29,328 nucleotides of DNA from a virus, in the IMG/VR virus record IMGVR_UViG_3300022205_000009, positions 1-29,328 of that record. The stretch is one strand, 5' to 3'. Below the pieces are notes generated by a model. That model did not search any database, was not told where the DNA came from, and saw nothing but the letters and a program-made list of their open reading frames with translations. Below, one piece after another: positions 23,788-25,473 of this stretch. The translations under genes were made by a program, and so were the position numbers. The stretch's first letter is position 1. Each line of letters opens with the position of its first letter.

Positions 23788-24104
23788 GCCAGTATTTTTG
23801 TTATTGCGGTAATCCGCTAACAGCAGAGACAGGCAGGCATAGAAAGAGATACTGCATTGAATGCACGTCCAAGAGGGGCATTGGAAAATTCATAGTCCTG
23901 CATGACCCAGACCCTCTTGGATTTAGCAATGGTGCTGAATTCTCCCTCATTCAGGGGAATGAGAATATCGGCAACTACACCAACGGTACAGAAATAGAGG
24001 TTATCCGAGAAGCCTCAGGAAAAGGATTAGAGGCCGGAAGGTACATAATGATGGGCAACGGAGAGAATCAGAAAGCGGTGAGGTTGACATCCCCTAAAAA
24101 GTAA
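23784..24104 (+). CDS. Zinc-finger protein, 106 aa
   Basis: ATG 23784 overlaps the previous stop, with AGGAG before it. MSQYFCYCGNPLTAETGRHR then RYCIECTSKRG: two cysteine pairs, a zinc knuckle. A beta-rich C-terminal part follows (SNGAEFSLIQGNENIGNYTN ... AVRLTSPKK). The promoter at 24084-24112 begins inside its last codons. Function unknown. Confidence 0.6.
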   Translation: MSQYFCYCGNPLTAETGRHRKRYCIECTSKRGIGKFIVLHDPDPLGFSNGAEFSLIQGNENIGNYTNGTEIEVIREASGKGLEAGRYIMMGNGENQKAVRLTSPKK

Positions 24105-24112
24105 TGTATACT
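24084..24112 (+). promoter_or_regulatory. Promoter of small RNA / HNH leader
   Basis: TTGACA (24084-24089), 17-base spacer, TATACT (24107-24112): perfect -35 and 5 of 6 in the -10. It sits over the end of the zinc-finger gene. Start of RNA near 24119. Confidence 0.75.
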
Positions 24113-24118
24113 TATACC

Positions 24119-24216
24119 AACATACCCGTCACGCCTCTGGCTTCATCATAAGGGAAACGCTATCCGGAATCGGAGTACCTTGCTAATGTACATGCGCAAA
24201 TATGACGGGTTTTTTT
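24119..24216 (+). ncRNA. About 100-nt small RNA or attenuator leader with terminator
   Basis: Between a strong promoter and a run of seven Ts (24210-24216). ACCCGTCA 24124-24131 pairs with TGACGGGT 24203-24210 and closes a 71-base inner region with small hairpins (CCG-GAAT-CGG; GTAC...GTAC). The closing stem plus T-run is a rho-independent terminator. The HNH gene starts 15 bases later with no ribosome binding site, so this is either a free-standing small RNA or an attenuator controlling the HNH gene. Confidence 0.6.
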
Positions 24217-24231
24217 ATTCTGGGTTGACCA

Positions 24232-24516
24232 ATGAATAACAGAAGAACAAGAATAAAAAATCTTCCTAAATCATTAACAAAATCTCAGTGGAGCGCGACC
24301 ATCGACCATTTTGGAGGGCTGTGCGCATATTGCGACAGTCCATGGGAACACAAAGATCACTTCTTCCCCGCTTGTATGGGAGGAGGTTACACCAAGGGGA
24401 ATATGATACCATCGTGTTCATCGTGCAATCAATCCAAAGGGGCGATGCATCCAAGGGATTTCTGTGATGAGGAAACTTATTTCCAAATAGAGGAATTTTT
24501 ATTGACACAAACTTAG
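24232..24516 (+). CDS. Small HNH endonuclease between two RNA units
   Basis: 94 aa. HFGGLCAYCDSPWEHKDHFF, then GYTKGNMIPSCSSCNQSKGA: CxxC, DH, N and CxxC in the order of the HNH fold (D-H...N...K). Probably a stand-alone homing-type nuclease. There is no clear ribosome binding site (GGGTTGACC before ATG). Its last codons contain the -35 box of the large RNA's promoter. Its placement between two RNA loci, not inside an intron that could be seen, is unusual. Confidence 0.8.
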   Translation: MNNRRTRIKNLPKSLTKSQWSATIDHFGGLCAYCDSPWEHKDHFFPACMGGGYTKGNMIPSCSSCNQSKGAMHPRDFCDEETYFQIEEFLLTQT

Positions 24517-24530
24517 AAATATAGTAAGAT
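24502..24530 (+). promoter_or_regulatory. Promoter of the large structured RNA
   Basis: TTGACA (24502-24507), 17-base spacer, TAAGAT (24525-24530): perfect -35 and 4 of 6 in the -10. Start of RNA near 24537. Confidence 0.72.
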
Positions 24531-24857
24531 AAAGAAAGATACCCGCCAATCCTCTCCAAGGATGCTGACGGGTTTTCCAAGGACTGACCCCACCCATTGG
24601 TGGATGTAGGCCCTGACAAGTGTCTGCTGGAAGCAGATAGCTCCGAAATGCGCTAGGCGTTTGAGTAGGAGTACCCGGCCTGAAAAAGGCCAATTAAAAG
24701 TGATGAGGCCGTATAGGGATGTGAAGCGCGGCGTCAAGATGCTAAAAGGACTATTCTCCTGCGCCTTGATGAAACCACCCACATCTGGCTACGTTGGTCT
24801 GCGCTAATGTTGGGAGGGGTTGTTGTGAAAAGCCCCCGGAACGCCAGCCTCATCACA

Positions 24858-24950
24858 CCAGATAGCGCACGGTGGACGTGCAGGGTTGTAGGCTTCATGC
24901 CTGCTAAGATAGATGTGTGGCCCGCACTTGGGTTCGATCCCCTTATCTGG
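24858..24950 (+). other. tRNA-like domain inside the large RNA
   Basis: A 7-bp closing stem (CCAGATA/TATCTGG) encloses: GCAC-7-GTGC (D-arm-like); GTAGG-CTTCATG-CCTGC with a 7-base loop (anticodon-arm-like, middle triplet TCA); GTGTG/CGCAC (extra arm); and GGG-TTCGATC-CCC with a T-loop sequence. It is not a normal tRNA: there is no T at position 8, six bases between D and anticodon arms, only 3 bp in the T stem, and a T at position 37. A degenerate or mimic tRNA is the cautious reading. Confidence 0.4.
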
Positions 24951-25064
24951 AATAGTCACCCAGACCGCTTAGACGGAGGTAGGTGACTGCGGGTTTACGG
25001 GACAATATCCGGCAGACCAAAAGGACGCAGGCGTAAGCCGATAGAGGATACCCGACCCATAAGC

Positions 25065-25096
25065 AACAGCCCCCGTAATTGGGGGCTGTTCTTTTT
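25065..25096 (+). terminator. Rho-independent terminator of the large RNA
   Basis: AACAGCCCCC (25065-25074), loop GTAATT, GGGGGCTGTT (25081-25090), then C and five Ts. A perfect 10-bp stem. It also ends the rightward transcription unit. Confidence 0.93.
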
Positions 25097-25142
25097 ATAT
25101 GTCAATAATCACCTTATATTGGTATTATCTCAATACCAAATG

Positions 25143-25164
25143 AAAACGCCCCACAAGGGGACGC
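25143..25164 (-). terminator. Terminator candidate of the leftward lysis transcript
   Basis: On the minus strand: CGTCCCC-TTGT-GGGGCG followed by TTTT. Six base pairs with one bulged base. It lies about 40 bases past the stop of 25204-25473, facing the rightward terminator. Confidence 0.6.
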
Positions 25165-25203
25165 TTTCACGAAAAAGTTTGTTATCGCATCAACACTATC
25201 TTA

Positions 25204-25473
25204 TCATTTATCCTGCGGGTTGTCAACCTCCGAATAATAGTAAGCGCTTGCCCTACCCGTAGGATATGGGCCGTGTTTCAACATCCTGCCCTCCCTTACG
25301 GCTTCCTCAAACTTATTGCGGATCGTGTCAGACTTGTTATATTTCAGTCCATATTTCTCGCAAAACATTTTGATTGTAAAACTTCCCTCAGGCGGTGACA
25401 TGCTTGCCAGAATTTCACCAATAACACTATTGTGCATATCATCATTCAGACCCGGTACTATTTTGGTGACCAT
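25204..25473 (-). CDS. Hypothetical 89-aa winged-helix-like protein
   Basis: MVTKIVPGLNDDMHNSVIGE, then FTIKMFCEKYGLKYNKSDTI and RNKFEEAVREGRMLKHG, ending RASAYYYSEVD. 'helix-turn-helix then a strand-loop-strand ending Y-Y-Y' looks like a small winged helix. It overlaps the metallophosphoesterase by 16 bases. A DNA-binding role is inferred. Confidence 0.55.
   Translation of the reverse strand: MVTKIVPGLNDDMHNSVIGEILASMSPPEGSFTIKMFCEKYGLKYNKSDTIRNKFEEAVREGRMLKHGPYPTGRASAYYYSEVDNPQDK

Follow-up and report, generated by a model that had tools for sequence, protein, structure and literature searches.

Genomic context of the locus

The window (the whole stretch of DNA analysed here) is a linear IMG/VR virus record of 29,328 bases, possibly a fragment. 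At positions 24537-25096 two convergent gene blocks face each other, with rightward genes on the left, the last of which is a small HNH endonuclease gene, and leftward genes on the right. As the initial annotation had held, these 560 bases contain no plausible gene (no open reading frame on the plus strand exceeds 59 amino acids), and their GC content of 54%, in a contig of 45.5% GC, lies at the 98.9th percentile. A domain search for Abi_2 (PF07751) returned nothing in the window, so that no AbiF gene adjoins either of the two RNAs that are predicted here, one small and one large. The features around the HNH gene and at the ends of the large RNA are the following.

24084..24112, plus strand: promoter of the small RNA, TTGACA-N17-TATACT, 11/12 match, -10 box ending 12 nt before CCCG
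24119..24218, plus strand: small RNA, a near-canonical abiF-family hairpin (CCCGTCACGCCTCT...GCGCAAATATGACGGGT) plus T7, the apical loop enlarged by an insertion of about 50 nt
24232..24516, plus strand: small HNH endonuclease gene (PF14279/PF01844, phrog_1035), between the two abiF-like copies
24502..24530, plus strand: promoter of the large RNA, TTGACA-N17-TAAGAT, sigma-70-type, 10/12 match, overlapping the last HNH codons
24542..24573, plus strand: degenerate abiF-family hairpin CCCGCCAATCCTCTCCAAGGATGCTGACGGGT, module 1, at the 5' end of the large RNA (RF03085, 14.5 bits; R1, 23.5 bits)
24574..24578, plus strand: interrupted T-tract TTTCC, at the position of the terminator T-run in 84/93 phage hairpins
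24989..24994, plus strand: GCGGGT, long-range partner of ACCCGC at 24541-24546, in competition with the local abiF-like hairpin
25065..25097, plus strand: intrinsic terminator of the large RNA, an 11-pair hairpin (25065-25090) followed by CTTTTTA

Signals and folding of the large RNA

The sequence signals support the earlier proposal that this is a dedicated gene for a noncoding RNA, equipped with a promoter and a terminator. The TTGACA-N17 promoter that had been named is present, its -10 box ending 11 nt 5' of the CCCG of the hairpin, and so is the terminator with its T-tract, the hairpin of which is the strongest structure signal of the contig (z about -5 in 150-nt windows). Compared with dinucleotide shuffles, the fold of the full 560 nt has a z-score of -3.2, which falls to -1.3 (24578-25062) or -1.9 (24578-24996) when the 5' hairpin and the terminator are left out, so that most of the excess is derived from the terminator. 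The 150-nt windows within 24601-25050 fold near chance, and a large local excess of structure did not survive removal of the terminator. The description of an ornate RNA with at least ten helices therefore holds in part: the minimum free energy (MFE) fold is compact and multibranched, but the folding excess is small and mostly that of the terminator, and given the weak z-scores and the near-chance local windows, so many helices are mostly what any sequence of such composition would be expected to show. The long-range helix of 10 bp between 24700-24709 and 24847-24856 does exist, with a pairing probability of about 1.0; a perfect 10-bp match in 560 nt is not rare, and the sequence of one arm recurs in the HNH gene, at 24463-24472. 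Promoter, terminator, absence of a gene and GC-richness together make it likely that 24537-25096 is an RNA gene, and do not demonstrate an unusually ornate fold.

Membership of GOLLD (RF02032) or ROOL (RF03087), which are likewise large phage noncoding RNAs with promoter and terminator, had been suggested, but neither model matches the region even at E up to 10, and in sequence and structure the large RNA is unmatched to them at any threshold. The proposed Infernal/Rfam check for group I/II introns and tmRNA also gave no match on the region at E up to 10, and across the whole window all Rfam families stay below their gathering scores. ROOL and GOLLD are RNAs of phages and prophages that frequently lie by tRNA islands (PMC12286853); the window is devoid of tRNA genes according to ARAGORN.

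abiF-family hairpins on both sides of the HNH gene

By covariance model, the first 37 nt of the large RNA belong to the abiF RNA family, which the initial annotation had not considered. RF03085 aligns full-length to the hairpin, and R1, a covariance model built from the phage hairpins described below, places it as the top match of the window at E 4.3e-5 (filters off), with both window copies scoring below the RF03085 gathering score of 37 bits. Across 53 other loci (715 kb) E 0.1 was passed with R1 only by one contig independently known as a carrier (on both strands) and by one other match of 26 bits. The large-RNA hairpin is degenerate, as the CAAAU bulge is missing and the outer and inner stems contain two mismatches. 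Moreover, its 5' strand has an ensemble pairing probability of about 0.8 with the long-range partner versus 0.11 locally. With this degeneracy and this preference for the long-range partner, the hairpin may no longer bind AbiF.

The small RNA, across the HNH gene from the large RNA and with a promoter and terminator of its own, is matched by RF03085 at 29.2 bits (E 9.8e-4, 161 nt against all Rfam families) and retains the outer stem, the inner stem, CCTCT and the CAAAU bulge. The first 40 nt of the large RNA repeat this element, which lies 417 nt upstream (AACATACCCGTCACGCCTCT / AAGATACCCGCCAATCCTCT, with TGACGGGTTTT occurring twice), and the two RNAs share direct repeats of 20 nt and 11 nt. 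The small RNA is the better member of the abiF family and the better candidate for an AbiF binder.

With the RNAs of RF03085 (such as RCd22 of the phi027 prophage and AbiFr of PbAbiF), the window RNAs have in common the outer stem CCCGYC/GRCGGG, CCTCT and a 3-bp inner stem (both stems intact in the small RNA only), as well as a motif at the extreme 5' end of a sigma-70-type transcript (predicted here) and a location in a phage or prophage. In RCd22, the first abiF motif spans transcript positions +9 to +41 (PMC12373285). Unlike the RF03085 systems, the window has no AbiF/Abi_2 gene; the large RNA differs from the RF03085 RNAs by the lack of the CAAAU bulge and of the terminator T-run and by some 490 extra nt, the small RNA by its loop insertion of about 50 nt.

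Orphan abiF hairpins across phages

In IMG/VR at least 119 stretches matched a degenerate hairpin pattern; about ten of them looked like chance and were excluded on visual inspection. Among 65 distinct hairpins, the share of paired cells is 99.2%, and 43 cells show two-sided compensatory changes; as the scan pattern fixed the hairpin ends, the independent covariation is that of pairs 8-27, 9-26 and 15-22 (38/43 cells), the 3' sides of which were not imposed by the pattern. Among named phages the hairpin is carried by Aeromonas T7-like phages, Roseobacter CRP-143, Acinetobacter Acj61, Salicola CGphi29, the cyanophages S-SZBM1 and S-CREM1, many mycobacteriophages and also T4-like phages. Most of these copies are unannotated; the one in S-CREM1 is annotated from Rfam. 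Abi_2 (PF07751) was found in two of 50 hairpin contigs and in none of 49 further hairpin records, which gives 2/99, a figure that is approximate because the contigs include fragments and near duplicates; its safest part is formed by the eight named complete phages with the hairpin, none of which encodes Abi_2. Both Abi_2-encoding records carry the same hairpin near the Abi_2 gene.

When promoters with at least 8/12 matches are counted upstream of 93 phage hairpins, the distance from the end of the -10 box to CCCG peaks sharply at 10-13 nt, and A predominates at positions -6, -3 and -1 relative to CCCG. Both window RNAs share this geometry, with distances of 12 (small) and 11 (large) and A at -6, -3 and -1. 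The pattern suggests that the orphan phage hairpins are, at least in part, RNA genes. With respect to the bulge, 74/93 copies are of the CACC type and 19/93 of the CAAA form.

A T-run follows directly 3' of the hairpin in 84/93 phage copies, with the large RNA (TTTCC) among the exceptions. Three further loci (L185, L163 and L113) have hairpins without a U-tract, followed by noncoding structured stretches of about 200-370 nt and then a distal terminator, which indicates that a long 3' extension after an abiF hairpin is not confined to the window; no similarity in sequence was found between these three extensions and that of the window. Since a hairpin followed by a T-run also makes a good terminator, orphan copies could primarily be terminators; they probably serve as terminators and/or as promoter-driven small RNAs. 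In the loci inspected (L106-L224, L245-L252) the orphan hairpins often lie just after genes or at the ends of convergent operons.

An enrichment of HNH genes beside orphan hairpins was rejected (9 seen, 7.9 expected). Proximity to tRNA genes, at 5/95 against 1 expected, is suggestive only. In S-CREM1 (L245:1505-1541) and S-SZBM1 (L252:1508-1544) an abiF-like RNA is embedded in a tRNA array, with tRNA genes a few bases away, and the S-CREM1 array also holds wcaG and manA RNA annotations. On the minus strand of another locus (L108:387-466 region) tandem abiF-like hairpins, CCACCC/GGGTGG and then CCCGCC/GGCGGG, resemble the double motif of RCd22.

The 3' extension and a possible tRNA-like fold

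The part of the large RNA that follows the hairpin has the following predicted elements.

24580..24696, plus strand: 5' domain of the extension with several local hairpins, in the MFE fold only
24700..24856, plus strand: domain closed by the 10-bp helix GTGATGAGGC/GCCTCATCAC, probability about 1.0 (161-nt domain, z -2.3)
24749..24755, plus strand: hairpin-loop strand GACTATT, complementary to AATAGTC at 24951-24957, immediately 3' of the acceptor stem
24858..24950, plus strand: possible class-II tRNA-like cloverleaf directly after the domain closed by the 10-bp helix, acceptor CCAGATA/TATCTGG
24867-24881 and 24888-24904, plus strand: D-like arm and anticodon-like arm of the cloverleaf (loop CUUCAUG if of 7 nt)
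24915-24927 and 24930-24942, plus strand: short variable arm and T-arm GGG-TTCGATC-CCC of the cloverleaf
24954..24988, plus strand: hairpin AGTCACC...GGTGACT, pairing probability 0.9-1.0

The complementarity of GACTATT and AATAGTC makes a putative pseudoknot possible. With respect to the cloverleaf, the tRNA-Sec model RF01852 aligns end to end with 24858-24950, at 12.7 bits (E 4) against a cut-off of 47, and the arrangement of T-arm and acceptor is met in 27 of 20000 shuffles. The cloverleaf has a free energy of -34.2 kcal/mol versus -35.6 for the MFE, a difference of 1.4; in the ensemble the acceptor, D-like and anticodon-like stems are highly probable and the T-arm has a probability of 0.04. 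As the tRNA-like fold was noticed post hoc, I regard it as a possible lead only.

Searches for homologues of the part after 24578 found none in phages, plasmids, about 240 loci, IMG/VR pattern scans and a GTDB scan. DNA similarity of the whole RNA to phages and plasmids amounted to a 36-base chance match. The neighbouring metallophosphatase-like protein, used as a route to close relatives, led to none, and in the relatives found through the terminase, at 71% and below, the large RNA is absent. In IMG/VR the T-arm pattern matched ordinary tRNA genes only; patterns for the T-arm with the pseudoknot strand, for a strand of the 10-bp helix and for the GGACTATTCTCC loop gave unrelated matches only. 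A single-sequence model of 24855-24996 had no match in 0.94 Mb of phage loci.

Discussion

AbiF is an HEPN ribonuclease from the lineage ancestral to Cas13 (PMC12165695). In Clostridioides difficile, RCd22 binds AbiF directly and thereby neutralises it, both in cis and in trans, an effect that is abolished when the abiF stems are destabilised (PMC12373285). Collateral cleavage by Cas13a targets tRNA anticodons, according to work cited in a passage of the same paper (PMC12373285). Against this background I tentatively propose, with confidence somewhat short of even, that 24537-25096 is the gene for a noncoding phage RNA that is based on an abiF-family antitoxin hairpin and would act in trans as an antitoxin or decoy against AbiF-type RNases of the host. 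Its dedicated promoter would start the transcript about 5 nt before the degenerate hairpin. Since the hairpin has lost its U-tract, polymerase would read through into the 3' extension, giving a GC-rich RNA with about 490 nt that comprise the domain closed by the 10-bp helix, the possible tRNA-like fold and the strong terminator. The large RNA and the adjoining small RNA would then occupy AbiF-type HEPN ribonucleases of the host in trans and so protect phage translation. That there is a single transcript, that AbiF is bound and that the 3' extension has a role, for instance as a stabiliser or as a tRNA-like bait, is assumed in this scheme rather than observed, as opposed to the family membership of both hairpins by covariance model, the common promoter geometry and the absence of Abi_2 from the window and from most carriers. 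An antitoxin hairpin in a phage that lacks the toxin would give this phage protection from AbiF of its host. There may also be one molecule with two baits, an abiF hairpin that docks AbiF/HEPN and a tRNA-like domain that offers a substrate-like anticodon arm, as one among many unrecognised anti-AbiF orphans; this more elaborate version I consider unlikely.

The principle of an antitoxin RNA supplied by the phage against a ribonuclease toxin of the host is the same as in phage PhiTE, whose pseudo-ToxI is reportedly an RNA mimic of the antitoxin of a type III toxin-antitoxin system. However, the toxin in that case has the ToxN fold and is not an HEPN protein, and the RNA is different. Like the window RNAs, the abiF small RNA of S-CREM1 is an orphan in a lytic phage without Abi_2, but it is of canonical length (37 nt), lies within a tRNA array and has no long extension (PMC9964418). 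The report on S-CREM1 does not appear to raise a role against AbiF (PMC9964418). No abiF RNA was found in phage sk1, a region of which is reported to protect against AbiF, and the open-access literature yielded no proposal that phages use abiF RNA against AbiF. The hairpin family itself is already known, and orphan copies in phages have previously been noted in single cases; how widespread the orphans are, the geometry of their promoters and the existence of an extended form seem not to have been described in the searchable literature.

Alternatively, and with somewhat lower probability, there is no large RNA at all, and behind a decayed hairpin of abiF type, which serves chiefly to terminate HNH transcripts, lies ordinary spacer with a decayed tRNA fragment and a terminator. 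The position between convergent genes, a core whose folding scarcely exceeds that of shuffles (z -1.3 to -1.9), a 3' part without homologue in the collections searched and a tRNA-like part that fails the cut-offs of ARAGORN and Rfam are all consistent with this. A GC content of 54% in a contig of 45.5% would nevertheless be unusual for spacer, phage spacers of such length are rare, the promoter has the geometry of abiF RNAs, and a T-arm with acceptor arose in only 27/20000 shuffles. The size, the phage origin, the promoter and terminator and the compact multibranch MFE fold with its tRNA-like part would also suit an independent ornate RNA in the style of GOLLD and ROOL, whose likeness to abiF came from an exchange of promoter and hairpin with its neighbour; as neither model matches at E up to 10, the folding excess is small and no homologue that could show covariation was found in the collections searched, I judge this rather improbable.

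Two narrower explanations fare less well. Orphan abiF-like hairpins might be a common type of phage terminator unlinked to AbiF proteins, and indeed the T-run directly follows 84/93 of them and many sit a few nt past a gene. Terminators do not need a conserved CCTCT, a T-N3-A mini-hairpin, covariation in the inner stem or an A-rich 5' flank, though. A proven AbiF antitoxin belongs to this family, and in the two Abi_2 records the same hairpin lies near the gene. Overall, this explanation is quite improbable. That function resides in 24858-24950, as a class-II tRNA of degenerate form with a UCA-like anticodon loop to which the rest is leader and trailer, is highly improbable, despite the 7-bp acceptor, the T-loop motif, the D-like and anticodon-like arms, the distance of 1.4 kcal/mol from the MFE and the end-to-end alignment with tRNA-Sec at 12.7 bits. 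Its score is far under the cut-off, ARAGORN is negative, the T-stem has three pairs only, six extra nt precede the anticodon arm, CCA is absent and the phage open reading frames are readable without a recoded UGA.

To return to the proposed decoy against AbiF, the widespread occurrence of toxin-less hairpins suggests, from sequence comparison, that phages may disarm AbiF defence with them. AbiF is a widespread antiviral HEPN ribonuclease that is restrained by RNA and has been proposed as an ancestor of Cas13. If phages broadly carry toxin-less abiF RNA, this would amount to an RNA counter-defence concealed within terminators and intergenic regions, and if true, it would explain the hairpin in T7-like, T4-like, cyano- and mycobacteriophages without an Abi gene. 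An anonymous "ornate RNA" would thereby be recast as an extended antitoxin RNA that can be tested.

Other observations in the window

On the minus strand, at the end of a leftward gene, a consensus-like promoter (TTGACA-N17-TGn-TAAGAT, 25198-25226) lies about 50 nt upstream of a terminator (25140-25170), which may together give a very short RNA or be due to chance. An RNA ligase gene (PF09414, 17523-18437) shows distant similarity to ligases from phages of Staphylococcus, Listeria and Bacillus; a phage RNA ligase fits a setting of RNA-damage defence and could belong to an RNA-repair counter-defence, which proves nothing. The palindrome CCCACRTGGG is present in eight copies near gene junctions (11312, 14161, 18410, 18589, 21834, 22746, 25552 and 28394), far above the number expected by chance, and is possibly an operator or a processing site.
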